A DNA stretch of 50,517 nt from a virus: positions 1 to 50,517 of IMG/VR virus record IMGVR_UViG_3300027708_000100. The stretch is one strand, 5' to 3'. Below are positions 14,075 to 33,700 of the stretch, one piece after another. A program made the translations under genes and the position numbers. Under the pieces are notes generated by a model that saw only the letters and a program-made list of their open reading frames with translations, did not search any database and had not been told where the DNA came from. The number at the start of each line of letters is the position of its first letter. Within the stretch, counting starts at the first letter, position 1.

Positions 14075-14298
14075 TGACTGATTTTTTAAAAGTTGAAGGA
14101 CACAACAGTTTAGTTCGAGATGTTACTACTGGTGCTATCCTAAATAATAATAGAACTGATTATGAAGAATATCTCTATAATAAGCGCATGGCAGAAGCTA
14201 GAGAAGCGGAGATATCTCAAAATACAGAAGATATAAAACAAATAAACAATGAATTACAAGATATAAAAAAGTTGATAATTCAGCTTTTATCTAAATAA
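14074..14298 (+). CDS. Small conserved coiled-coil protein after the DUF4815 gene
   Basis: A 74-residue protein. I chose ATG 14074, which overlaps the upstream stop as TAATG, over an in-frame TTG at 14065 that would sit inside the upstream gene. The N-terminal half has FLKVEGHNSLVRDVTTGAI and a Tyr-rich EEYLYNKRM. The C-terminal half (residues about 38-74) has a heptad-like pattern of Ile/Leu with Asn/Gln/Glu and is a likely coiled coil. I recall small proteins of this shape next to the same large structural gene in other T4-like aquatic phages. A structural or assembly-linker role is inferred from context. Confidence 0.7.
   Translation: MTDFLKVEGHNSLVRDVTTGAILNNNRTDYEEYLYNKRMAEAREAEISQNTEDIKQINNELQDIKKLIIQLLSK
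14291..14297 (+). promoter_or_regulatory. Late-type promoter box (CTAAATA)
   Basis: CTAAATA overlaps the last codons of the 74-residue gene, 24 bases before the ATG of the fibre-like gene at 14322. The predicted start is near 14303, with an AAGGAA ribosome site in the leader. Confidence 0.5.
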
Positions 14299-14321
14299 AT
14301 AGGATTGATTAAGGAACTTAC

Positions 14322-15461
14322 ATGGCTAATATAACATCAGCATCTATTACACTAAGAGGTACTAAAGGTAGTCCTCTTACAAATACTGAAGTTGATAATA
14401 ACTTTAGTAATTTAAACACTGCTCTAGCAACTGGACTCACAGCTGCTAGCTATACTGCAGCAGACGTTTTAACCAAATTACTCACAGTAGATGGTACCAC
14501 TTCTGGTCTAGACGCTGACTTTGTTCGCGGATTAGCCACTGCTACTACGAATACAGCTAGCACAATGGTTTCTCGTGATGCTTCTGGTAATTTCTCTGCA
14601 GGAACTATTACTGCGAACTTAACTGGTACTGCTTCTATTGCAGCTAGTTTAAATTATACAGTGGCAATTGCTGGTGGTGGAACTGGTTCCACTACTCAAG
14701 CTGGCGCACAAACCAATTTAGGTTTAGTTCCTGGAACAAACGTACAATCATATAGTGCAACTCTTGGTGGTTTGGCAGCTGCTGGTTCTGCAGCTGATAC
14801 TGCCCCATATTATACTGGTGCTGGCACTGCATCTACTCACAGTTTTACTGCTTATATGCGTGGTTTGGCAGGATCTGCTGCAGCGATTAACGCTAGAAGT
14901 ACATTAGGTTTAACAATCGGTACTGACGTACAAGCATATTCTGCCAACCTTTCTGCTCATGCATCAGTCTCTTCTGGAATTATTGCACAAACTGGTGCTG
15001 GTTCTGCAGCTGGACGTACTATTACTGCAGGCGGTGGTATTTCTGTGTCTAATGGTGATGGTGTTGCTGGTAATCCAACTATTTCTGCGGCAGTTACTTC
15101 TGTTCAAGGTGCAACTGGTGCTGTTGTAGTTTCTGTCCCTGTTACTTCTGTTCAAGGTGCAACTGGTGCTGTAACAGTTACTAATATTAGTGGATCTGCT
15201 GGATCTGCTGGATATGCTACATCTGCTGGTTCTGCTGGTTATGCTAGTTCTGCTGGTTATGCTAGTTCTTCTGGCGGTGGTTGGCCAGGGAATTTAAGTG
15301 GGTTTTATAATAACTTAGGTAACTATGGCAGTTTCTTTGATGGAGTTGCCAACTGCGGAGGGTTTGGACTATATAGCGCAAATGATGTTCAAGCCGTCTT
15401 GGGAAGATCAGGTAATTCTGTTAGCGTCAATATGAATTGTAATTGCCGTTGTAATTGCTAA
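14322..15461 (+). CDS. Fibre-like structural protein with tetracysteine C-terminus
   Basis: A 379-residue protein. The N-terminus (ITLRGTKGSPLTNTEVDNNF, residues 9-28) is typical of phage fibre proteins that attach to the virion. Next come fibre repeats: VSRDASGNFSAGTITANLTG, AGGGTGSTTQAGAQTNLGL with a partial second copy (ARSTLGLTIGTDVQAYSANL), and two copies of VTSVQGATGAV (nt about 15096-15180). A low-complexity GSAGYASSAG stretch covers nt 15196-15276. The last part changes character: aromatic/Gly-rich (GFYNNLGNYGSFFDG), ending in NMNCNCRCNC, four Cys at alternating positions at the very C-terminus, plus one upstream Cys in ANCGGFG. Probably a distal fibre or tip protein; the Cys tail suggests a metal site or a cross-linked end. 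Confidence 0.7.
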   Translation: MANITSASITLRGTKGSPLTNTEVDNNFSNLNTALATGLTAASYTAADVLTKLLTVDGTTSGLDADFVRGLATATTNTASTMVSRDASGNFSAGTITANLTGTASIAASLNYTVAIAGGGTGSTTQAGAQTNLGLVPGTNVQSYSATLGGLAAAGSAADTAPYYTGAGTASTHSFTAYMRGLAGSAAAINARSTLGLTIGTDVQAYSANLSAHASVSSGIIAQTGAGSAAGRTITAGGGISVSNGDGVAGNPTISAAVTSVQGATGAVVVSVPVTSVQGATGAVTVTNISGSAGSAGYATSAGSAGYASSAGYASSSGGGWPGNLSGFYNNLGNYGSFFDGVANCGGFGLYSANDVQAVLGRSGNSVSVNMNCNCRCNC

Positions 15462-15477
15462 TTCTATTTACTATAAT
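15449..15477 (+). promoter_or_regulatory. Putative sigma70-type promoter
   Basis: TTGTAA (15449-15454, 4 of 6 to TTGACA), a 17-base spacer and TATAAT (15472-15477, perfect -10). The -35 lies inside the end of the fibre-like gene. Predicted start about 15484, 25 bases before ATG 15509, with AGGA as ribosome site. The weak -35 in AT-rich DNA limits confidence. Confidence 0.4.
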
Positions 15478-15508
15478 AAACTAGATTAAAATAATAGGAA
15501 AATAACAA

Positions 15509-16297
15509 ATGGCCAGAAGAATTAAACTGATATTCTCAGATAGTGATTTAATTTTTAAATTACCACAAGAAGATGTTACTTACAACTTAAATGTCACATC
15601 AACTGAAATACAATTTAAAATTTCTATAGAAGATAATTTTAGTGAACCATATGCCAGTTGGACATACCTTAACTGTACACTAAATTTAGATACTGTAAAA
15701 AACATGAATCGATTTCATTCAAATATGTTAGTCGGTGTAGGATTTGCCTCTAATGAATTTTTAATGGAGCAGAAAGAAGAACATCGTATTGTTGGAAATG
15801 CTAATTTAGTTGATATTTCTGCATTTTCAAAAACTAAGCGAATACAAAATATAGCTTCGAAACGCTTGGCTACTGCTCCGATACGTTTATTTATTTATGT
15901 AAGAGATCCAAAAGATACATTTGAAGATTGGGATATTTTAGTCCACGTTCCAGCCAAAAATCATACATTTATAACAAATGTGCTACAATGGGAAGGTCCA
16001 GTTGAATTAACTGAATTTAATCATGCTATAGAATTACCTGATGCGATTACTTCTGAAGAAGATACATCGTATAATAATCCTGACTATTACAAATTTAAAG
16101 TTTTTGCTCCAGCATATAATACTGAATTAGAAGCCGAACCATGTGTGGGAGTAATTGATAGAGCTAGGATTTATATGAAAGATGGGGAAGGTAGTATTAG
16201 AGTATTGAAATCTTCTGTAGAATCAGGAGATAAGATTATTGCTAAGGTTGGTTTTGGCAACTATGTAAGATTGCATAGTATTGAGAAACAACTATAA
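15509..16297 (+). CDS. Unknown protein, 262 residues
   Basis: I do not recognise this family. The predicted protein is mixed and beta-rich with no signal peptide or membrane segment. It opens with ARRIKLIFSDSDLIFKLPQE, loosely like the opening of the 108-residue BppU-like protein at 20084 (AERIKLVQGDNLPYIRL), and contains LFIYVRDPKDTFEDWDILVHV and VGFGNYVRLHSIEK near the end. ATG 15509 follows an AGGA ribosome site. The following gene starts 2 bases after its stop. It is first in an apparent three-gene unit with a 98-residue protein and a solute-binding protein. It could be an adaptor, a structural protein or a partner of the binding protein. Confidence 0.6.
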   Translation: MARRIKLIFSDSDLIFKLPQEDVTYNLNVTSTEIQFKISIEDNFSEPYASWTYLNCTLNLDTVKNMNRFHSNMLVGVGFASNEFLMEQKEEHRIVGNANLVDISAFSKTKRIQNIASKRLATAPIRLFIYVRDPKDTFEDWDILVHVPAKNHTFITNVLQWEGPVELTEFNHAIELPDAITSEEDTSYNNPDYYKFKVFAPAYNTELEAEPCVGVIDRARIYMKDGEGSIRVLKSSVESGDKIIAKVGFGNYVRLHSIEKQL

Positions 16298-16299
16298 TA

Positions 16300-16596
16300 A
16301 TGTCATTTATTAATGAGTATTTGATAGAAATAAATGAGTTTCCAATATTTGCTAATGGCAGTTATACGGTAAAAGATTATTTTTATTATAATTCAAATAT
16401 TAAACAATATGATCATAGGTGCTTAATTGTACCAGTATCAAAAGTTTTAAATAACACTGAATTACCATCAGAAGATATAATAAAAAAATTAATAAATAAT
16501 AATGTGCCTATAATGACTAGGTTGATTGATTTAAAAGACGAAACAGAAACTTGGATTTTTAACACGAAAAGTTTAGAGGAAATAAAAAATGACTAA
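16300..16596 (+). CDS. Unknown small protein, 98 residues
   Basis: Not recognised. It has many Asn, Ile and Tyr residues, an N-terminal EYLIEINEFPIFANG, a Tyr-rich DYFYYNSNIKQYDHR, then a helix-like SEDIIKKLINNN and a strand ending TETWIFNTKSLEEIK. There is no signal peptide or membrane helix. The start is 2 bases past the preceding stop; its 3' end overlaps the solute-binding gene by 8 bases, so the three genes are probably co-translated. The overlap and consistent + strand frame make it likely to be real. Confidence 0.6.
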   Translation: MSFINEYLIEINEFPIFANGSYTVKDYFYYNSNIKQYDHRCLIVPVSKVLNNTELPSEDIIKKLINNNVPIMTRLIDLKDETETWIFNTKSLEEIKND

Positions 16597-17533
16597 GCAT
16601 GTAAAATGGGTTATCGCCCACGAACCAATCGGTTTGTTTTTGAAAGTAGCAGAAACATTCTCTGCAGAAGTTAATGCTAAAACAAATGGTGCATTTGATA
16701 TAGAAGTTCTTTCATTAACTGATTATACAAATAAGTATAATAATGGTAAGAAAATTACTAAAAATGAACTTATGCATTTAGTTGACACAGGTGCAATTGA
16801 AATGAGCCATATCTATACTACTTGGTTAGCTGACTATAATAAAGATCTACATGCATTAGATCTACCATTCCTATTCCGCGATCATGACCACGCTGATCGT
16901 GTTTTAGAAGGTACAATTGGTGTTGAATTATTAGCTGGTGTTGCTAAGAATTCTAATACACACGCTATGTCTTTCACTTACTCTGGTGGATATCGTGTTG
17001 TTCCTGCGAACTTCCGTGCTGACACTGTTGAATCATGGCAAGGTCAAGCAGTTCGTACATCTCGCAGCCCAGTTGCTGTTGAAACTTTTAAACTTCTTGG
17101 TGCAATTCCAAATAAAGATATCGCTCTTGAAGAAATGAATCAAGCTGCAGATGCTGGTATAATCTCTGCTGGTGAATCTACATATGTTCGTATCTTCCCA
17201 CTACAACAGAATGAATCTTTTAAAGTTGTTAATGACACTGCTCATAGTTTGTTTTTAACTTCTATTATCGTTAATCAAGATTTCTTTAAACAGTTTGATA
17301 CTGAAACTCAAGAAATTATGGCTACTGCTGCTTTTAATGCTGCTCGTAAAGAGCGTCGTGAATCCGTTGCTGATATTCCCAATATTCTTGCTGAATGTGA
17401 ATTTAAAGGTGTTGAGGTTGTTCGTATGTCTGCTGAAGAAGAAACTAAGTTTAAAGCTGTTACTTCTAAAGTTTACGATAAATTTGCAAATTATTTTACT
17501 CCAGGTTTAGTACAAAGTATCCAGTTGAATTAA
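16589..17533 (+). CDS. TRAP-type (DctP-like) solute-binding protein lacking a signal peptide
   Basis: A 314-residue protein, the size of a mature DctP-family periplasmic receptor. Family-like features: the opening WVIAHEPIGLFLKVAETFSAEV (strand then helix), ALDLPFLFRDHDHADRVLEG (DctP proteins have a similar LPF-F-D-A-V-G segment), SWQGQAVRTSRSP (equivalent to the ligand-contacting 'GLKIRVxxS' region) and QAADAGIISAGES (like the 'GavDG' region). In bacteria such proteins deliver carboxylates to a TRAP membrane transporter, but here no secretion signal precedes the domain and no transporter genes are nearby. It may act in the cytoplasm or virion, or bind a metabolite. It overlaps the upstream gene by 8 bases and is followed by a strong terminator. 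Confidence 0.8.
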   Translation: MTKHVKWVIAHEPIGLFLKVAETFSAEVNAKTNGAFDIEVLSLTDYTNKYNNGKKITKNELMHLVDTGAIEMSHIYTTWLADYNKDLHALDLPFLFRDHDHADRVLEGTIGVELLAGVAKNSNTHAMSFTYSGGYRVVPANFRADTVESWQGQAVRTSRSPVAVETFKLLGAIPNKDIALEEMNQAADAGIISAGESTYVRIFPLQQNESFKVVNDTAHSLFLTSIIVNQDFFKQFDTETQEIMATAAFNAARKERRESVADIPNILAECEFKGVEVVRMSAEEETKFKAVTSKVYDKFANYFTPGLVQSIQLN

Positions 17534-17551
17534 TCAATATGTTTTATTAAG

Positions 17552-17575
17552 AAGCCACTGCGGTGGCTTTTTTTT
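17552..17575 (+). terminator. Intrinsic terminator after the solute-binding-protein gene
   Basis: AAGCCAC, loop TGCG, GTGGCTT (7-bp perfect stem, 17552-17569), followed by an uninterrupted T run to 17575. It lies 18 bases after the stop codon and just upstream of a TATAAATA box, so it separates two transcription units. Confidence 0.85.
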
Positions 17576-17579
17576 CACC

Positions 17580-17587
17580 TATAAATA
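17580..17587 (+). promoter_or_regulatory. Perfect T4-late promoter box (TATAAATA)
   Basis: Exact TATAAATA between the terminator and ATG 17593. In T4 the box spans -13 to -6, which would place +1 at 17593, the A of the start codon. The transcript is therefore predicted to be leaderless or nearly so. Confidence 0.65.
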
Positions 17588-17592
17588 GTTAT

Positions 17593-18624
17593 ATGATTTT
17601 ATATTATAATATCCATGCTGTGCCTGATCTCATTAGAATGAAACATCAGAATATTCCAGTGTTTTTATCTGAAAACTATTCAGATAAATTATTCAATACG
17701 TATGAACAGTTTGGCTTAAATAAACATAATGTTATCTATGATCGCACAAAAAATATACCACACTATCTCAAAATAACTCCAGATTTACATCCAATGCCAG
17801 GTGTAGTAAATGATTATAATAAAACATTTTGGGAAATAACAGAGACTAGATGTAAAGAATTATTAAGTTTAGAAAAACCAATTAATGTTATGTGGTCTGG
17901 TGGTATTGACAGTACATTTATTCTATTTGCATTAAAATATTTTTCTAATGATCCCGATCAAGTAAGGGTTTATGGAACTTATAATAGTATACTAGAGTCT
18001 GGTGATTTATTTGATACCTATATTAAAGATAATTTTAAATTTGAAATTAAAGTTGGAACATACAATAATCATAATTATCAAGACGAAACTAGCATTTATG
18101 TTAGTGGTATGTGTGGTAATCAGTTATTTGGTCCCACAGATGATTTTTTTGCAACTGGGGATACTGCAATGTTTCATCACACATTAGGTACACCAAAAAC
18201 AATTTATGAATCATATGAAAATAATATAGATCCAGTATTATTAGAATTTTTAAATCCAATTATTAAAACTTCTCCTAAGAAACTTGAGACTGTTTCTGAT
18301 CTTAGATGGTATTGTATTTTTAACTTAGATTGGTACACTGCAATTTATGAACATAAGACTCAAATTCCATTGGATAAAGTAAATAGATTATACAGCTTTT
18401 TTAACTCAGAGTTGTTTCAAGAATGGGCTATAAATACTAAAGATCCTTTTACTAAAGTTGAGGGTAATCCTTTAACACATAGATGGCAAATGAGAGAGAT
18501 ACTAACTGAACTTATTGGAGATCCATATTATAGTTTACATAAAGATAAAAAAATATCTGCATTTTCAACGCCAAATCCAAGCTGGCTATTTTTATTAAAT
18601 GATTATCATAACATATACTATTAG
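17593..18624 (+). CDS. Asparagine-synthetase-like ATP pyrophosphatase
   Basis: A 343-residue protein. The open frame extends upstream to a GTG inside the terminator hairpin, so I chose ATG 17593 (MILYYNIHAVPD). Residues 102-107 are SGGIDS, the PP-loop ATP-binding motif of N-type ATP pyrophosphatases. Residues 171-180, SGMCGNQLFG, resemble the second conserved motif of asparagine synthetase B ('SGdGgDElfGG'). No N-terminal nucleophile Cys for glutaminase activity is present, so an amide donor other than glutamine, or amidation/ligation of another substrate by adenylation, is expected. Lasso-peptide cyclases belong to the same superfamily. It is followed 10 bases later by the radical SAM gene, probably in one unit. 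Substrate unknown. Confidence 0.72.
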   Translation: MILYYNIHAVPDLIRMKHQNIPVFLSENYSDKLFNTYEQFGLNKHNVIYDRTKNIPHYLKITPDLHPMPGVVNDYNKTFWEITETRCKELLSLEKPINVMWSGGIDSTFILFALKYFSNDPDQVRVYGTYNSILESGDLFDTYIKDNFKFEIKVGTYNNHNYQDETSIYVSGMCGNQLFGPTDDFFATGDTAMFHHTLGTPKTIYESYENNIDPVLLEFLNPIIKTSPKKLETVSDLRWYCIFNLDWYTAIYEHKTQIPLDKVNRLYSFFNSELFQEWAINTKDPFTKVEGNPLTHRWQMREILTELIGDPYYSLHKDKKISAFSTPNPSWLFLLNDYHNIYY

Positions 18625-18634
18625 GAAAAAAATA

Positions 18635-20017
18635 ATGGCGCAATTTGATATAACTGTAGTCAACCCTATTACAAATGAAAAACGTATTGTTCAATATGAT
18701 AATACAAATAACAAACTTACATGGGATGGCGAAAATATTTTACCAGAAGCAAAAACAACAATAGAGCAGCCCCAAGTAAAATTAGAAATAAGTAAAGAAC
18801 CAAAAGTTGTAAAAATTTTATTGGGTCTTTCTTGTAATTATGAGTGTAGTTATTGTAATCAAAGATATGTTCCACATGCTGAAGAAACTAATCCATCTGA
18901 TGTTCAACCATTTGTAGATAGAATGTCAACTTGGTTTGATGGAGGAGATGATGGTAAGGGAAAGGGAACTCGTTTTGAATTTTGGGGTGGTGAGCCACTA
19001 GTATACTGGAAAACTCTTAAACCTCTTGCAGAAACAATTAAATCTAAATACCCTGGCACTAAATTTAGTATGATTACAAATGGATCATTACTAGATGATG
19101 AAAAAAATGAATGGTTAGATAAGTTAGGATTTTCTATTGGATTCTCTCATGATGGACCAGGACAACATGTTCGTGGTCCAGATCCTTTTGATGATGAAAA
19201 ATCTAAACATGGAATTATTTCTCTGTTTAAATTATTTGCTCCTCAAGGTAGGATAAGTATTAATACAATGCTTAATAATAAAAATTATGATAGAATTGCA
19301 ATTGAAGAGTGGTTTATTAATTTAATTAAAAACAATATAGGTGAACACTACGTTCAATATCTTCGTATCGGTGAAGGGGCATTTGTTGATGCTTATGATG
19401 AGGGTGGAGAAAGCAGCTCTTTAAAAACAGAAGAAGAAGAAATAACATTTAGGAGAGAATCTTTAAATCAAATTCGTTCTGGTAAAATTAAACATTTTAC
19501 TATTGTTCCTGAAAAAGCACTAGAATTTATTAATACTATCAAATCTGGCACTAGAAGTGATACTCTTGGTCAAAAATGCGGAATGGATAAGAAAGAAAAT
19601 CTTTCTATTGATCTTAATGGGAATGTTTTAACCTGTCAAAACGTATCAACAGTTTCAGTTAATCCTTCTGGTATTTCTCACCACCTTGGAACAGTTGATA
19701 ATTTAAAAGATATTGAAATTAAAACAGGAACTCATTGGAGTGATAGAGAAGAGTGCCCAAAATGTCCTGTTTTACATATTTGTAAAGGTGCATGTTTCTT
19801 TTTAACTGGGAATTTATGGGAAACTACTTGTAATAATGCATTTAGTGATAATCTTCCAATCTTTGTTGCTACTATAGAAGTTCTAACTAATGGATGGTTA
19901 CCCATCTATATAGATGGTCCATTACGAGAAGATCGTAAAGATATCTTCTGGTGGGTAAATGGCAAACCAGAAAAAACACGTAAAGCCAAAAAAATTATTC
20001 CAATTACCGCAATTTAA
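18635..20017 (+). CDS. Radical SAM protein with SPASM domain
   Basis: A 460-residue protein. I use ATG 18635, which has AGGAAAAAA before it, rather than the ATG at 18599 inside the upstream gene. The [4Fe-4S]-SAM motif is Cys67-x3-Cys71-x2-Cys74 (CNYECSYC), followed by FWGGEPLVYW (the GGEP motif) and SMITNGSLL. The C-terminal SPASM domain is complete by pattern: Cys315-x13-Gly-x4-Cys334, then Cys374-x2-Cys377-x5-Cys383-x3-Cys387 and Cys399, enough for two auxiliary clusters. SPASM enzymes mostly modify peptides or proteins (sulfatase maturation, sactipeptide thioethers, PqqE). It pairs with the asparagine-synthetase-like gene and sits among fibre genes. Substrate unknown. Confidence 0.9.
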   Translation: MAQFDITVVNPITNEKRIVQYDNTNNKLTWDGENILPEAKTTIEQPQVKLEISKEPKVVKILLGLSCNYECSYCNQRYVPHAEETNPSDVQPFVDRMSTWFDGGDDGKGKGTRFEFWGGEPLVYWKTLKPLAETIKSKYPGTKFSMITNGSLLDDEKNEWLDKLGFSIGFSHDGPGQHVRGPDPFDDEKSKHGIISLFKLFAPQGRISINTMLNNKNYDRIAIEEWFINLIKNNIGEHYVQYLRIGEGAFVDAYDEGGESSSLKTEEEEITFRRESLNQIRSGKIKHFTIVPEKALEFINTIKSGTRSDTLGQKCGMDKKENLSIDLNGNVLTCQNVSTVSVNPSGISHHLGTVDNLKDIEIKTGTHWSDREECPKCPVLHICKGACFFLTGNLWETTCNNAFSDNLPIFVATIEVLTNGWLPIYIDGPLREDRKDIFWWVNGKPEKTRKAKKIIPITAI

Positions 20018-20043
20018 TACTGCAAAACCCAATTTACACATCT

Positions 20044-20068
20044 TATAAATAAAGAAGTAAGATAAATA
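20044..20068 (+). promoter_or_regulatory. Two late-type promoter boxes in tandem
   Basis: TATAAATA (20044-20051) and ATAAATA (20062-20068) between the radical SAM gene and ATG 20084. ATCTTA (20040-20045) and TAAGAT (20058-20063) form an inverted repeat around the first box. The second box would give a leader of about 10 bases containing AAGGAA. Confidence 0.55.
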
Positions 20069-20083
20069 ACATAAGGAATTCTG

Positions 20084-20410
20084 ATGGCTGAAAGGATAAA
20101 ACTGGTCCAAGGGGATAATCTACCTTATATCAGACTCACCCTTAAACATGCAACTGGGCTGCCCATAGATGTTTCTGCTGCCACAGTACAGATGTTTTTT
20201 AGAGCAAAAGGTTCTACCACGATTCTTTCTACAATAACATGTACTAAGCCAAATGGTGGAACTGATGGGGTAGTTATTTTCAATTTTTCTGGAACTTCAC
20301 TTAACGTAGATCCAGGATATTATGAAGGTGAAGTACAATTAAATTACGCTGGTACTATCCAGACAGTTTACGATACGCTTCAGTTTCAAGTAAGAGCACA
20401 ATTCGCTTAA
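20084..20410 (+). CDS. BppU-like N-terminal domain structural protein
   Basis: A 108-residue all-beta protein beginning AERIKLVQGDNLPYIRLTLK, with VSAATVQMFFRAKG, GVVIFNFSGTSLNVDPGYYEGEVQLNY and TVYDTLQFQVRAQF. This strand order and the 'G-D-x-x-P / x-G-x-Y-x-x-x-v' pattern resemble the Ig-like N-terminal domain of phage baseplate upper proteins (BppU/DUF2479), which anchors receptor-binding proteins. It stands alone as a single domain. An AAGGAA ribosome site precedes ATG. It is followed 16 bases later by a fibre-like gene, which could be its partner. Confidence 0.65.
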   Translation: MAERIKLVQGDNLPYIRLTLKHATGLPIDVSAATVQMFFRAKGSTTILSTITCTKPNGGTDGVVIFNFSGTSLNVDPGYYEGEVQLNYAGTIQTVYDTLQFQVRAQFA

Positions 20411-24694: not shown

Positions 24695-24760
24695 ATGTTA
24701 GCTACATATACATGGGCTGATTTATTCAGCCCATTTTCAAATCAAAACACTGGTAAATAA
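24695..24760 (+). CDS. Possible 21-residue leader ORF coupled to the giant gene
   Basis: ATG 24695 opens a 21-codon frame (MLATYTWADLFSPFSNQNTG plus K) whose TAA (24758-24760) overlaps ATG 24760 of the giant gene as TAATG. The giant gene has no visible ribosome site, so translation through this short frame could supply initiation. The frame contains a hairpin. It is too short to judge coding by composition. Confidence 0.35.
   Translation: MLATYTWADLFSPFSNQNTGK
24713..24733 (+). other. Hairpin before the giant gene (weak terminator or leader structure)
   Basis: TGGGCTGA, loop TTTAT, TCAGCCCA: a perfect 8-bp stem followed by ATTTTC-like sequence with only four T. It could be a weak terminator for the upstream fibre gene or a structure in the leader of the giant gene; the short T run makes a strong terminator unlikely. 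Confidence 0.55.
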
Positions 24761-27700
24761 TGTTTGGTTTTTCTCCCTTATCTAGTGCACCACTCAGCAG
24801 TTTATTTTCAACTGTTAGAACATACACAGTATCAATTTCAGAAACTGGAAATGCTTCTGATCCGATTATTACTGCGATAGGTAACTTTGGTGTTATAGGT
24901 TATGAATATTCAAATAAGAATTATCTTAATTTCCCAAATAATTATAGAGTATCGCCGTGGTTTACTGGTAATGCTGTAGTATCTAATGCTGCCGTACTGG
25001 CACCAGATGGAACATATACTGGGCAATTATTAAAAGAAACTGTTGCCAGCTCAGCACACTCTTTAAATTATGGTTTAACTTTACCAAAAGCAAATACAAC
25101 TTATACACTTTCTTGCTATGTAAAACCATATACTGCTGATAGAATTGTTAACTTACAGTTCCATGAAAATCCAGCATATGCATATGCTGTTATACAACTA
25201 GGCGCAAATTTATCTTCAATTGATGCTGTACCACAAGTTACACCAAGGTCATCTTACTCTAACGCATCTGGAACAGTAACTGCTGCAGCCAATGGTTGGT
25301 ACAGAGTTAATATTACTGCAACTACTGGTATACAAGGTTCTACAACAGTTAGTTTATTATTAAATAATGCTGGTGCGCAAAACTATGCTGGTAATGGAAA
25401 TTCTGGTATATATCTTTGGGGTATGCAGTTTGAAGAAGGTTCATCGCCTACTGCAGTACAAAATCCATATAGCACTGACTCTGGCGCATCACAAGTATCA
25501 TTCATTCCACAACTAACAGAAATAGCAACAATAACAACAAATTTATATAATGTTTCTGAAAATTTCTCAGATTCTACTTACTGGTATCCATTCCGTATAT
25601 CGGTAACTCCTAATTATGCAGTTGCGCCTGATGGTTCAAATACTGCATCATTATTAACAGCTACTGGCGATTATGCCAATATGGCTGTCGTTCCCAATGC
25701 AAGTACATCCGTATTTAATGTCAATCCTGGAGAATATTGGACAGTATCAATATATGTAAAATATGTAAATAATCAATATGTTTCAATACCCAATGAAGTA
25801 ACAGGTGGTGTTAGTTCACTTGCTGTTTTTGATATTATTAATGGTACCATTAATAATCAAGCATATAATTGTACTAATGCCACTATAACTTCTGTTGGTT
25901 CTGGATGGTGGAGAGTTACTGCCACAACTCTAATTCCTGCAGGAGGATCTGGTTGGAATCCGCATCCTATTTGGTTAGGACAGTATACTGGTGGGCAAAC
26001 AGGAACAGCTGCTTTGTTTTGGGGTGCACAGATGGAAAGAAGCGCCACTGCCTCAGCATATCAACAAAAACCATTGCGAGATTCAGCTGGAGTTACAGTA
26101 GTATCAAGAGATATAAAAGAAATTGGAACAACTAACTTAGTTGATTACTCGCAAAATCCTGTTAGTTGGGAATTCCGTTTATCTACTCTGCAATCAACTA
26201 CAGAGTTGGCACCTGACGGAACAAATACTGCCGTACGATACACACCAACAGCACAATATGGTGGTGTGCTTCCAGGTGCTTTAACAAATACTCCAAACTG
26301 GTTACATGATACTCCAATGGTTGGAAGTGTATGGCTTAGAGTTGCTTCTGGAACAAAACAAGTTGGACTAGGATTAAATGCTGGTGGCATGGGAGTATTT
26401 GTTACAGTTACTACAACATGGCAAAGATTTAGTAGTTCTTATACTAAATCTGCTAATTACAATGATTTCTTCAATATATACGAACCTAGCTCTACTGGCT
26501 TTGTTGATATTTACGTTTGGGGTTTCCAAGTAGAAGTAGGAACTACTGCTTCTGCATATCAAGTTAAACCAATTGTTGAATCTACCACACCACAATTATT
26601 ATTCACTCCACAACTAACTGAAACTGGAACATCAGTAGATGAATATAAAGTTGCAGCTAATCTAGTTACAGCTTCCAGTGAAAAAGCATCTAGAAATTTA
26701 TTAAACAATTCTAATAATTTTAATCAAACTCTATACTGGGGTTTGAATGGTGGATCAGTATCACCAAATTCTATTATATCTCCAGACGGAACACAAAATG
26801 CTTCCACTATTACTGGTGGGTCAGCATTCAATGGCGTAAATCAAGGATGGTATGCCACTGCTGGAACAATCTATACATATAGTGTTTATTTAAAATATAT
26901 TTCTGGATCAACTGAGTGTATACTTGGACCTGATGCAAATCCAACAAACAGTGATAGACAAATGTATGTTAATATACAAACAGGAACTATCTCTTTAACT
27001 GGAACGAAACTTATCACATCTGGTGTAACCGATGCTGGTAATGGATGGTATAGATTTTATGCAACATTCAATCAGCCAAATCCAGGATACACTGATATTA
27101 CGATTTATGAGTCTTGGAGAACTGGTGGCGCAATGCAGTTCGGTGTTTATGGAGCACAAGTTGAATATGGAAATAATGCCACTTCACTTGTAATGACTCC
27201 TCTGCAAGAATTATCCAGTAATACTCTTGCTACTACATTAACATCTCAAGAAAAATTAAATAAAAATTTAGTTGCTTATCCAGAAGATATTACTAATATT
27301 GGTTGGGGAAAACTCAACATATCATCTATTGTTCTGGCAACAGCACCAGATAATAGTTTCACTGCTAATTTAGTGACACCAAGCGCAAAAACTAATGCTC
27401 AATTTGAAGTTACTACTGGAACATTTGTAGGATTTCAGGTATACTACACTAGAATAGGACAAACATATACATTCTCAGTATATGCTAAACCAAATGGATA
27501 TAATTATATTCGATTAAGTTTTGGTAATATTGCTGGATTTGGTTTAGCGTTCTTTAATGTATTAACAGGAACTGTTGGAACTACAACAGCCAATACTGCT
27601 CCAAATAATTTTTCAGCTGCTATTGCTCCTGCTGGTAATGGATATTACAGATGTAGTATAACCTACACTGCCACAAGCATTGGAGTAGTTAATAGTGACA

Positions 27701-30700
27701 TTTACATTCTAAGTGCTGATAATCAATACAATTGGACATCAGATGGCACTAGTGGTGTATATCTATATGGTGCTCAGTTTGAAGAAGGTAGTTTATCTTC
27801 TTATGTTTCTGTTGCTAATTATGGTAATACTCAAACTACTACATCAGCAGCTGCTCCGCAGATAACTGAATCTGGTGGAGCAAATGATTCAGAAAGTTCT
27901 CAAGCAGATTTCTACCCACCAGTACTAACAGAATCTGGTTCTGCAAATGATTCAGAAACTGTATCAGCAGTTAATACAGCTACAAAGATAGAACTAGCAA
28001 GAAAGAACTTAGTTGTTAAATCAAACGTATTTGATAACACTAATTATTGGTCACAGACTGCAGCTACACCAATTCCATATGCAACTGTTTCTCCTTTTGG
28101 AACAACTGATGCTTATTTCTTAAGAGAATCTGCTACATTAAATAATGGTCATTATCTTCAACAGGTTCCACTTTGGGAAAAGGGATATCAATACACATAT
28201 AGTATATACGCCAAAGCATCTACTAGAACATATCTATTTTTATTAATTGGTTCTGGAGCAATTCCAGGACAACAGAATGCATTGTTCAATTTAACTACTG
28301 GTGCAATTAGTCAACTCAATGTGACCAATGGAACAACTGCTGCAGTGACTGATGTGGGAAATGGCTGGTGGAGATGTTCAATAACAACTCCTGCGGCAAT
28401 TTCTACAGGGTTCAGTACAATATGGGCATCTGTTGCGGATAACACACAATCAGTTAATTACACTGGTGATGGTACTTCTGGTATATACATTTATGGTGCT
28501 CAAGTTGAGAGGGGAACTGTACCAACTGCTTATGTTGATTATGAAGACACAAGTATAGTTACTGGTGGTTATTCTCTTGCTCTACCTATTACAGAAACTG
28601 GTACTGCTGTTGATTCTGAAGATCAAGTTGTTGCTGCAGCTCGTAGCACCAAAGAGTGGGCTACTACTAATTTTGTTGACTATTCACAAGATGGTACTCA
28701 ATGGGGATTAAATCCTGGAACTACAATTATATCAACTACAGAGTTGGCTCCAGATGGAACATACACTGCAGTAAGAGTTAGACCAACATTAAACTATTCT
28801 GGAGTTAGATCTAGTACTGGTGTTTGGTTACATGATACACAAATGGTTGGTAGCGCATGGGTCAAAGTAGATACTGGTACACAAGCACTACAACTTGGTC
28901 TTGGTGGTGGCGGACTTGCTACTAATATTACAGCCACAACAACTTGGACAAGAGTTTACGGAACATTGTTAAAATCTGCAAACTATAATGATAACTTCTT
29001 AGTTATGTCTATAGATGCATCTCATGGTGATTTTCTTGTTTGGGGTATTCAAGTTGAAGTGGGATCTACGCCATCAACATATCAAGTTAAACCAATAGTT
29101 GAATCTCAATATAATACCACTATATTTAATGGTGCAAGAGCAGTAGAACGAATTTCCAAAAATCGTTATTTAAACTCTGAAGATATTACTCCTTGGGGTA
29201 AGAATAATGTTACATTTAGTGTTAATTCCGTTGCCAATCCAATTGATGGCGCATTAACTGCAGATCTAGTTAGTAATACTGTTAACTTAACCAGCAATAT
29301 TAATACATCTCAAATATCAAATGGTAGTTGGATAGCTGGTACTATAATGACCAAATCCATTTATGTTAAGTATATAAGTGGTGCACCGTATTTATACTTC
29401 CAAGCAATTCCAGTTGCGATAACAGCAGTCAATAATAATGGAACTTACTTTGTCGCAGCATTTGATTTCACTACTGGATGTATTTTACAAAGTGTTTCTG
29501 GAAACTCTACTGCATCGATAATTGATGTTGGTGGTGGTTGGTTCAGACTTATTCAAACAGTTACAGTGCCATCGTCTAATACAGGAACTAGTACTCCCAT
29601 AATTGGAGATTCTTTCTTTATTGGAGCATACGGATCAACTAGTATTAGCACTACTTTTGCAGTATATGGTGCTCAGTTAGAATTTGGATCTGTTGCAACT
29701 GCATATCAATACACTGGAGCAGCAGGTGTTGGTGGTTCAAGTATAGATACGTTGGCTAATACTCTTCAATTCTCTAGAGCCAAGAATGAGATTGCCAATA
29801 AGAATTTATTGAACACAGCTTCTGCGTCAGAAACATTTACTAGTGGTTGGACAGGAAACTCAGGAACAATCGTACAAAATGCAACTATTGCACCAGATGG
29901 TATAAGTCCTGCGATTAAATTAGTTGAGGTTGCAACAGGTAGCCCAACATCTAATCAACGCATGTATTATAAACCAGCAGTAGAAGGTGGAACTGTATAT
30001 ACATACTCTGTTTATCTAAAACCTGCAGAGCGTCTTTACGCATCGGTATATTTTGAAGATAACACTCAACTTGGCGGTGGCCGAGTTGGACAATACTTAA
30101 ATTTACAAACAGGCACAATAACATCAACTTATCAAACAGGCACAAATACATTATTAGGATCTAATTTACAATCTTTACCCAATGGATGGTTTAGATATAG
30201 CTGGACTGTAAAAGCAGTATTATCACAAATAGCAAACAGCGGTGCGTATATAATCCTACGTATGGGAGATACTCCAACAAATTTTGCTTATGATGGTGAT
30301 GGTACCTCAGGTATGTATTTCTGGGGTGCTCAAATGGAAATCGGAGATACGGTAACTCCATATGTTTCTGTTTCTAGCTATGGTAATGCTCAGACAAGCA
30401 CAACTGCAGTAAATAATAATTTAACTGAAACTGGTACTGCTATTGAAACTGAAGATAATACTACTTCTGCAAATTCAGCTTTAACAGAATCTGGTACTGC
30501 TGTTGAAAATTATCAAAATACTCTAGCATCATTATCTTATTCTTATGAATCTTCAAATAATAATCTATTAAGTCTAGCAGCTGAAGACTTCTCATTATGG
30601 AATAAAAATACTGCTCCAAATGACTGGACTGTAAATACTAATGTAGCTGTTGCTCCAAATGGAACTAATACTGCTGATTTAATTATTAGACCAGCTGGTT

Positions 30701-33700
30701 TTGGTAGTTCTGTTGTATATAAATCATTCCCTTTAAATATGGCAGGTCAAACCAATACTTCGTATGTTGGTTCGATATATCTTAAAGCTGCGGGATATTC
30801 TAAAGCTAGAGTAAACTTTGAAAATAATGCATTTAATAATGTATCTTATGGAGCGTCAGTTGATTTAATCGCAGGAACTGTATATCAAGTTTTAAATGGA
30901 TCTACAGTAACTATAACTGACGCTGGTAATGGTTGGTGGAGAATTACAGTTACCGCAAGATCAGATGCTGATGGTGGTAATTATATCTTTGCATTTAGCC
31001 CAGCGGATAGTAGTTATAACCAAAGTTTTATTGGCGATGGAGCTTCTGGTATCTATGCGTGGGGTGCTCAAGTTGAATATGGAACAGTGGCAAGTCCATA
31101 CGTATCTTCTTCATTGGCAGATTCTTCTACTAATACCACAGCATTAACTGCAATTACTCCAGAATATTCTAGAACTAATATATTTAATTCATCAGAAGTA
31201 TTAACTTCTTCTCCTTGGGTAGCGACCAATGCTACTATTATTCCAGGAATAATAGACACAAACTCTGGTGCGCTTTCATACAAATTAATTGATGCTAATG
31301 CCAATACAGGAAATAAAGAAATATATCAAAATCAATATTGGATAAAAGGTGCAACATATACTGTTTCTGTATATGTAAAAGCTGCAGAAAGAGATACATT
31401 TAGAATTGGTTTACAGAATGGAACCATTATGGCTAGTTCTGGAAATGCTTATTTCTATGTACCAAATAATGGAACAGGAAATAATTTCTTTACAAATGGA
31501 TATTCAAGTAACACAATAACTTATATTGCAAATGGTTGGTATAGATGTACTGCTACATTTACTGTGAATGGAACAGGTGGTTTTGGTGGCATATACTTTA
31601 CAATGGCAACGAATGGCGGTGCTAGCACTAATACAAACTATACTGGTGATGGTACTTCTGGAATGTATTTCCTACGTCCACAAGTTGAACTTGGATCAGT
31701 TGCTACTCCATGGACTTTAAGTACCATTGACGCAGAAACTACTACAGTTGCTAATCTATCAGCAATATCTGAATCGTCAAGTAAAAACTTAATTAAATTC
31801 TCAAACGATTTCTCTAATAGCTTATGGTTCGCAGGAGGAGTTGTTAAAACATCAATTAATAATTCTGCTCCTGATGGATCTTCTAATGCATTATTATTCA
31901 CAACATTGGGTGGTGGCGGACTTCAGTCTTTCTATGAAGGTTTAATTCCAGTAACACCAAATACAACATATACATATTCATTCTATGCTAAACTTGGAAC
32001 ACTAGTTTCTAGCGAATGGTTATTTGCAGTATATAATGAAACTGCATTAACAATGATTGCATCGGATATTATTCCTTCAATCACATTAGATACAACTTGG
32101 CAGAGAGTTACATATACATTTACAACACCAGTAAACTGCTCAATAATAAGAGTATATCCATTTAGAAACTTTGGTCTGGCCACTGTTAAAACAGGATATG
32201 TTTGGGGTCCACAGTTAGAACTTGGATCAGTCGCAACAACGTATGTATATGGTTTATCAGACGTTAATACAAATACAGCAGTATTCTCGCCTGCAAGTTC
32301 AGAGAAGTTAATTAATAATAGATTAACATATTCTGAAGATTTCAATAATGGTTTATACTGGTTAAAACAAGCTGGTATGACATTCTTGCCAAATTATATT
32401 GATCCGAATGGTAATAATACAGCAACCAAGTTAGTTGAATCAACAAATAATTATTTCCAAAGAATGTATGTTGCTCATCAATTAACCAACACAATGGCAA
32501 CACTAAGTTGCTACGTTAAGTCTGATGGTTCTTCTAGAAACGTATATTTAAAACTTTGGGATAGCGTAACAGATATGGGTGTTGTGTTTAACCCATCTAC
32601 TGGTGCGTTTGTTTCTTATAGTCCTGTGGCAATTACTGGTTCATACTCAGCTACTGCGGTTGGTAATGGATGGTATAGACTGGCCATATCAACATATCTT
32701 ACTAAATCTGGTGACGTGGCTATTGGATTAACCAATGGAACTACATACGTACCATATGCTGGTGATACTACAGTTGGCGTTTATGTTTGGGGTGTACAAT
32801 TAGAAACTGGTGATACTGTAACAAATTATGTTAAGATGCCAGTCAGCGAAATAGCAACACCTAGTTTTATTACATATACAAGTTTAAGCGAACAGTCTGG
32901 AACAATATTTGATACAGTAACAGGCGATAGATTAAATAATGCTCCTTATTCGATTGAAACAGTTACTGCACAAGAATCAAATTCAAATACTATTTCTACT
33001 TCTACTTCTAGAAAAGAAATTTTAAATAAAAACACTTTATTATTCCCAGAAGATTTTACAAACTTCAACTGGGGTAAGAGTTTAATATCATTAACACCTG
33101 GAATAATTGCTCCAGACGGAACACCTACTGCATATAAACTTGGTGAAAGTTCATCAATTATTGTTGGTAATAATTACCACTATGTAGTACAATATCCTGT
33201 TACTTATTCTGCTGGAATAACTTATACAATTTCAGTATTCGCAAAAGCAGCTGAACGTACTCTACTACAAATTCAGAGTGATGCTACTAGTTCCAGTATT
33301 GTTGGAATATTTGATTTAAGTAATGGCACTTTAGGTGGCGCTCCAGGTGGTGGTGCATTGAATATAACAGGAGCAATTACCGATGCTGGTAATGGATGGT
33401 ATCGTTGTTCAGTTACTGGAATGTCTAAAGTAAACGTCAATGCTGGAATAAAAATTCTATTGGGTAATGCAGGTTACGGTAACCAGTATAATGGTGACGG
33501 AACTTCTGGATTCTATATCTGGGGTGCTCAGATTGAACAAGGTAGTTTATCTCCATATGTTTCTTATGAAAATTATGGTAACTTAAAAACTGTTCAAGCA
33601 GATTTCTATCCAGCATTACCAATAGAAAATGTATCTGCTGTTGAAAGTGAAACTGGATTCCCTGCCACTACAAGTATATTAACAGAAACTAGTACTGCTA

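Follow-up and report, generated by a model that had tools for sequence, protein, structure and literature searches.

A radical SAM/SPASM enzyme of a T4-like phage very probably modifies an Asn-Cys tail at the end of the phage's own fibre

Our analysis suggests that a phage radical SAM enzyme very probably modifies an asparagine-cysteine (Asn-Cys) tail at the end of the phage's own fibre. The stretch of DNA analyzed here, a 50.5 kb virus record referred to as the window, is from a T4-like phage. The evidence consists of the co-occurrence of enzyme and tail, the conservation of the tail, the class of the enzyme and the set of its SPASM ligands. In many unrelated phages the enzyme occurs together with the tail, which makes the tail its apparent target. 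It is likely that the radical SAM/SPASM enzyme post-translationally modifies the N-C-x-C-N-C-COOH tail of the fibre encoded at 14322-15461, giving a cross-linked tip. We infer that the tail is the substrate, that the product is a thioether and that the modification plays a role at the receptor-binding tip, the first of these being much firmer than the second. To our knowledge, no virion protein is matured by a radical SAM enzyme, and radical SAM maturation of phage fibres was not found in the open-access literature searched on radical SAM enzymes and RiPPs.

The fibre region of the window is flanked by genes for baseplate wedge, head-tail adaptor, head closure, terminase, tail tube, portal and head maturation protease proteins. 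This region thus corresponds to the host-recognition cluster of T4-like marine phages, which lies between baseplate and neck and in which radical SAM cassettes have been noticed in pelagimyophages, with no function given (PMC7029224). The features of the region are listed below.

14322..15461, + strand: fibre or virion structural protein of 379 aa, the proposed substrate (phrog_697 structural protein, E 8e-16; phrog_24210 tail fiber, E 2e-8; same-position homologues in related phages)
15429..15461, + strand: C-terminal Asn-Cys tail, NMNCNCRCNC plus stop, the proposed modification site (conservation in 37 homologues; enzyme co-occurrence)
15509..16297, + strand: 262-aa protein between the fibre and the enzyme module, with diverged homologues in many loci and no Pfam or PHROG match
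16300..16596, + strand: 98-aa protein, member of a separable DctP/AsnB-like module (in 32 of 36 AsnB-seeded loci)
16589..17533, + strand: DctP, a TRAP-type solute-binding protein of the separable module (PF03480, E 1.7e-40; in 32 of 36 AsnB-seeded loci)
17553..17575, + strand: terminator-like hairpin and T-run after dctP (read as AGCCAC-N4-GTGGCT and then a T-run)
17580..17587, + strand: TATAAATA, a T4-late-promoter-like motif match
17593..18624, + strand: AsnB-like PP-loop ligase of 343 aa, without a glutaminase domain and with GNQLFG in place of DELFGG
18635..20017, + strand: radical SAM/SPASM enzyme of 460 aa, the proposed fibre-tail maturase

Both enzyme genes were upheld as called. The AsnB-like gene runs from an ATG at 17593, a start conserved among relatives, to a stop at 18622-18624, and the radical SAM gene from an ATG at 18635 to a stop at 20015-20017, leaving the 10 bases between them that the first-pass annotation had described. 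The fibre had been placed at 14336-15461; its true start is 14322, and its C-terminal NCNCRCNC had been overlooked. The two genes had also been placed behind a late promoter. The TATAAATA motif is indeed present, but the window contains 6 copies against 9.7 expected by chance, and none was found upstream of the AsnB-like gene in the 7 relatives checked. As a motif match with neither enrichment nor counterparts in relatives, it was rejected as a late promoter for this gene. The fibre region also encodes a repetitive protein of 3693 aa (24760-35841), possibly a giant fibre or adhesin.

The fibre ends in ...NMNCNCRCNC. Among its 37 homologues, N374, C375 and C377 are 100% conserved and N378 and C379 95%; the last six positions, N-C-x-C-N-C, are nearly invariant, while most of the preceding 70 residues are hypervariable, with a mean identity of 17% for residues 301-320 and 341-360. 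Within the tail, position -3 is tolerant (N, A, R, V), and the conservation of Asn at -5 and -1 almost reaches that of Cys. Across all distinct tails the residues between the cysteines are mostly Asn (218/256), with some Asp (14/256), and in 52 of 67 tails a Cys is the very last residue of the protein. Clustering of the tailed proteins by sequence, with the tail removed, gives 11 groups, and in several phages a single enzyme is accompanied by two or three different proteins that carry the tail. A portable C-terminal peptide on otherwise unrelated virion proteins, tied to one enzyme, has the profile expected of a substrate tag.

The link between enzyme and tail was assessed in viral contigs by four tests, which were enzyme-seeded, motif-seeded, fibre-seeded or based on an independent lineage. 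The loci are of metagenomic origin, with some redundancy and frequent truncation, and the counts are not fully independent because many loci come from related T4-like phages. The tail was found in 14 of 16 enzyme-seeded loci, and the remaining 2 are cut off upstream. Among loci with an in-frame C-terminal CNCNCNC, 43 of 60 contain the enzyme, compared with 1 of 60 chance DNA matches (p 3.5e-17), and the fraction is 43 of 47 for those with at least 2 kb downstream. Of the four loci without the enzyme among these 47, three look like chance ORFs and the fourth (L059) ends 2.4 kb downstream, while the lone enzyme-bearing control locus (L039) has an in-frame CNCNCNC inside a longer ORF.

The fibre-seeded query stops before the tail, and a CxC-tailed ORF is present in 31 of the 31 enzyme-bearing loci that it yielded. 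When the loci with 3.5 kb or more downstream are collapsed at 90% identity to a non-redundant set (n=33), 17 have both enzyme and tail, 16 have neither and 0 are discordant (Fisher p 9e-10), most of the 16 matching the fibre over a repeat segment only and true lineage negatives being few (L331, L343). The sole radical SAM gene of L331, a 166-kb genome, is distant (E 6e-11) and lies outside the fibre region. An apparent discordance, enzyme with untailed fibre, at L327-L330, L335, L338, L339, L341 and L344 was rejected, since the tail sits there on a separate ORF. A CxC-tailed structural protein is found in every enzyme locus with sufficient flank.

The independent lineage is that of the Achromobacter siphophages JWF and 2-1, whose enzyme homologues are 39-41% identical (JWF 40%). 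The JWF fibre (gp28) just upstream of the enzyme contains NCNCDCNCNCS, directly followed by a self-cleaving Hint domain (Hom_end_hint, PF05203, E 3e-12), and the locus has no AsnB-like gene. When cellular genome contigs were searched with the same codon pattern, the matches were mostly simple-repeat or frame-shifted, with no enzyme of this family within 8 kb. Two of them look real: a phage-like ORF (L223) and a fibre-like ORF with a Hint domain in a Rhodospirillales MAG (L155, 1340-2905). In L155 the CxC run is directly followed by a Hint-like CFPAGT motif, as in JWF, and no enzyme of this family lies within 8 kb.

Both enzymes might instead be host-takeover or metabolic genes that lie in the fibre region by chance. 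The hypervariable host-recognition region of T4-like phages does gather cargo genes, among them the radical SAM cassettes of pelagimyophages (PMC7029224). However, the enzyme tracks the tail and not the region, as no locus is discordant and the link recurs in the unrelated siphophage JWF. A chance location of both genes is therefore very unlikely; for the AsnB-like module, a cargo reading is plausible. The earlier proposal of a fibre substrate rather than a metabolic role was supported, and the enzyme was seen to recur in many phages, always beside a tailed structural protein.

The radical SAM motif CX3CX2C is formed by C67, C71 and C74, which are invariant among 36 viral homologues of 25-71% identity. 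The SPASM cysteines are C315-x13-G329-x4-C334, C374-x2-C377-x5-C383-x3-C387 and C399, where C315, C334, C374, C377, C383 and C387 are invariant in the same homologues and C399 occurs in at least 90% of them; the intact motif and complete SPASM set read in the first-pass annotation were thus confirmed. Radical_SAM (PF04055, E 5.5e-8) and SPASM (TIGR04085, 31.1 bits, cut-off 27) are both matched over their cut-offs, and the enzyme belongs to phrog_1802 (E 4.5e-66). Among NCBIfam equivalogs, the best matches (viperin and PapB) are far under the cut-off, PapB scoring 55.6 against 340 bits, and other known maturases are also below; the best full-length alignment is to PapB, over residues 60-388. 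The 36 homologues have no conserved eighth Cys, and the fourth Aux I ligand of anSME (Cys255) has no conserved counterpart. From the sequence, the Aux I cluster is predicted to have three protein Cys only, possibly with a non-Cys ligand.

An AlphaFold2 model of the enzyme (pLDDT 91) matches CteB best (Z 23.7 over 339 residues), followed by ChlB, anSME (Z 20.2) and TigE, with the metabolite or cofactor enzymes MoaA, viperin, BtrN and NifB clearly lower (NifB Z 10.8); these Z-scores speak to fold, not function. CteB and anSME act on peptides or proteins (PMC6231123), as does ChlB by the title of its structure entry, and the earlier assignment of the SPASM enzyme as a peptide or protein modifier was upheld. 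Residues 1-50 of the model have three strands and no helices, and the N-terminal ~55 residues show no clear recognition-element fold.

The rank of anSME among the best structural matches raises the question of whether the enzyme is a sulfatase-maturase relative that makes formylglycine from a tail Cys. The JWF homologue gp30 is annotated as a sulfatase maturase, or as plain radical SAM, in a record that names no substrate. However, TIGR03942 scores 44.1 bits against a cut-off of 349, Cys255 lacks a conserved counterpart and the tail is without a CxPxR/CxAxR consensus, making formylglycine formation highly improbable. With TIGR03942 under its cut-off, no eighth Cys and no CxPxR in the tail, membership of the anaerobic sulfatase maturases was rejected.

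The CxC tail could also be a metal- or iron-sulphur-binding fibre tip, where three tails would meet in a trimer and the enzyme would help to load or redox-tune the site. Alternating Cys would place the thiols on one face of a strand, the tail is at the extreme end of the fibre, and the tolerance at -3 would fit a ligand set defined by Cys. On the other hand, the fold neighbours CteB, ChlB, anSME and TigE are side-chain modifiers, NifB is far lower, and Asn at -5 and -1 is conserved almost to the degree of Cys. We regard such a tip as quite unlikely and favor covalent modification of the tail.

In ranthipeptides and sactipeptides, the maturases link the sulphur of Cys to carbon atoms of several residues, Asp and Asn among them. 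The tail core N(-5)C(-4)x(-3)C(-2)N(-1)C(0) permits N-x-x-C and C-x-x-N pairings alike. These overlapping spacings, the seven-Cys SPASM set and the presence of thioether-forming and Cys-oxidising enzymes among the nearest folds favor thioether cross-links. We give such links, whether they connect residues of one tail or of different tails in the trimeric fibre, at best even odds. The Aux I cluster of CteB has an open site to which a Cys of the substrate can bind, and AlbA, too, has a set of seven Cys (PMC6231123).

Based on these comparisons, we propose a mechanism for fibre maturation. The core peptide would be part of the fibre itself, at the extreme C-terminus, and no leader would have to be removed. 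As most tails already form the native end of their protein, neither a leader nor a protease would be needed. Aux I, with its three predicted protein Cys, would bind a tail Cys thiolate, and a thioether between Cys-S and a carbon of Asn or Asp would form, resulting in a cross-linked fibre tip. Where more protein lies behind the core, as in JWF, the Hint domain exactly there could cut the extra part off. We further lean, with some reserve, towards RiPP-like virion maturation in many unrelated tailed-phage lineages, where a dedicated enzyme would cross-link the portable Asn-Cys tail of receptor-binding fibres and the chemically locked tip would tolerate free variation of the neighbouring receptor-binding residues.

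The AsnB-like protein has the PP-loop SGGIDS at residues 102-107, with S102, G103, G104, D106 and S107 invariant, and, as had been noted, lacks a glutaminase domain. Its model (pLDDT 91) matches beta-lactam synthetase (Z 13.8), TsnB9 (13.6) and asparagine synthetase (12-13). A glutamine-hydrolysing asparagine synthetase was rejected (PF00733, 13.1 against 21 bits; TIGR01536, 12.9 against 267), and given the missing glutaminase domain and GNQLFG for DELFGG, the protein is not an asparagine synthetase. A PDB sequence search returned essentially PP-loop matches only, including nitrile synthetase 9lei (E 0.002) in the PP-loop alone. For the kinship to lasso-peptide cyclases suggested earlier, the common synthetase fold is the one supporting observation, and no lasso precursor, B-protein or leader peptidase family was matched among the scanned proteins of 14089-20407. 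AS-like enzymes such as TsrC, PesC and ScdTA carry out amidation or nitrile formation at peptide C-termini (PMC13060819). Compared with these and with asparagine and beta-lactam synthetases, the phage protein has the same PP-loop SGGxDS and synthetase-domain fold (Z 12-14), but it has no glutaminase domain, GNQLFG for DELFGG, and DctP or TctC plus a ~100-aa ORF as genomic partners.

The first-pass annotation suggested that the two enzymes could form one virion protein-maturation system. The maturation part is supported for the radical SAM enzyme, which co-occurs with the fibre tail, but not for the AsnB-like gene as its partner. Both genes do recur together in other phages, in 25 of 36 AsnB-seeded loci, but they separate in many others: the radical SAM gene is missing within the locus in 11 of the 36, and the AsnB-like gene is present in only 5 of 43 enzyme-bearing motif-scan loci and absent from 13 of the 31 enzyme loci of the fibre-seeded set. 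DctP and/or the 98-aa ORF, by comparison, accompany the AsnB-like gene in 33 of the 36. The AsnB-like gene therefore groups with DctP and the 98-aa ORF, and the enzyme-tail pair does not require it. The preferred reading of its product is an amide-forming, ATP-dependent enzyme from a distinct solute-binding-protein module, which in the window adjoins the radical SAM gene; most likely it adenylates a carboxylate to form an amide on an unspecified acceptor.

Both enzymes might still act sequentially on the fibre tail, combining radical modification with amidation or nitrile formation at the terminal Cys. The adjacent genes in the window, the 25 shared loci, the C-terminal activity of AS-like enzymes (PMC13060819) and the 52 of 67 exactly C-terminal tails are consistent with this, and by analogy the AsnB-like protein may act on the fibre C-terminus in phages with both genes. 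However, besides the enzyme loci without an AsnB-like gene, JWF included, some of the 11 AsnB-like loci without the enzyme are beside ribonucleotide-reductase-like, NifU and Fe-S genes, and tails with and without an AsnB-like gene show no visible difference. Sequential action is thus unlikely, and the radical SAM enzyme is favored as the tail maturase on its own.

Several features of the AsnB-like loci were also observed. In L262 and L271, the AsnB-like gene lies among ribonucleotide reductase-like and glutaredoxin-like genes, and L262 (9711-11338) has a phage DctP homologue followed by NifU-like and Fe-S assembly (Fe-S_biosyn) genes. DctP of the window (16589-17533), encoded within the virion gene region, has no obvious signal peptide, as its N-terminus coincides with the start of the mature domain. 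Many phages that share only about 60-70% identity in their radical SAM proteins have DctP sequences 82-92% identical to each other, which points to strong constraint or to recent exchange. In two large phage genomes (L374, 1028-4671; L375, 2108-7873), a second AsnB-like gene occurs with a ~105-aa ORF, TctC-type binding proteins with apparent signal peptides and a class-I glutamine amidotransferase, which is another binding-protein and amidotransferase module. In Pseudomonas phage Cygsa01 (L258, 4838-6987), a Gly-rich adhesin-like protein is followed by two nearby AsnB-like genes that are annotated as MnmA, and no CxC tail was seen in the proteins read there.

Among known systems, the SCIFF, sactipeptide and ranthipeptide maturases (CteB, AlbA, PapB, NxxcB) resemble the phage enzyme in the radical SAM and SPASM domains (CteB Z 23.7), the seven SPASM Cys, the three-Cys Aux I predicted here and a Cys-rich ribosomal substrate nearby. 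Unlike their small leader-core precursors, the phage substrate would be the C-terminus of a large virion fibre, with an alternating NC repeat; the phage system has no clear RRE and misses all equivalog cut-offs, and no exporter or protease was seen in the enzyme locus. QhpD (for amine dehydrogenase) and anSME (for sulfatase) modify a residue inside a protein used by the cell, not a natural product. The phage enzyme would share with them the protein-directed action and shares, with anSME, the fold (Z 20.2), but it is phage-encoded, and its putative substrate is not an enzyme and has a C-terminal repeat tail without a formylglycine consensus. JWF gp30 (40% identity) is of the same family as the enzyme of the window, which matches phrog_1802 at E 4.5e-66, with an NC repeat in the adjoining fibre, and differs from the window in its Hint domain after the tail, the lack of an AsnB-like gene and its siphophage origin.

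If the proposed maturation is true, phage fibres carry RiPP-type chemistry, and the recurrent radical SAM gene annotated without function in the host-recognition region of T4-like phages is accounted for. The tail would be a portable, self-contained C-terminal tag for enzymatic modification. It would also matter to producers of recombinant fibres, whose product would be unmodified if the enzyme were not supplied.

Further tail flavours were observed beside more distant radical SAM proteins. In L031, L040, L109, L335 and L341, a 67-79-aa protein (...HTH.FYDDYST.CNCNCNCNC[ST]RGIL or VCECQCACACGRGTL) adjoins a tandem array of 2-4 radical SAM genes that are more distant; this looks like another version of the system, in which the Cys run is followed by further residues. 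In L025, L099 and L131, another tail flavour, CNCNCNCDCSDDSGGG or CNCNCNCNCTS, is found with radical SAM proteins of 24-25% identity.
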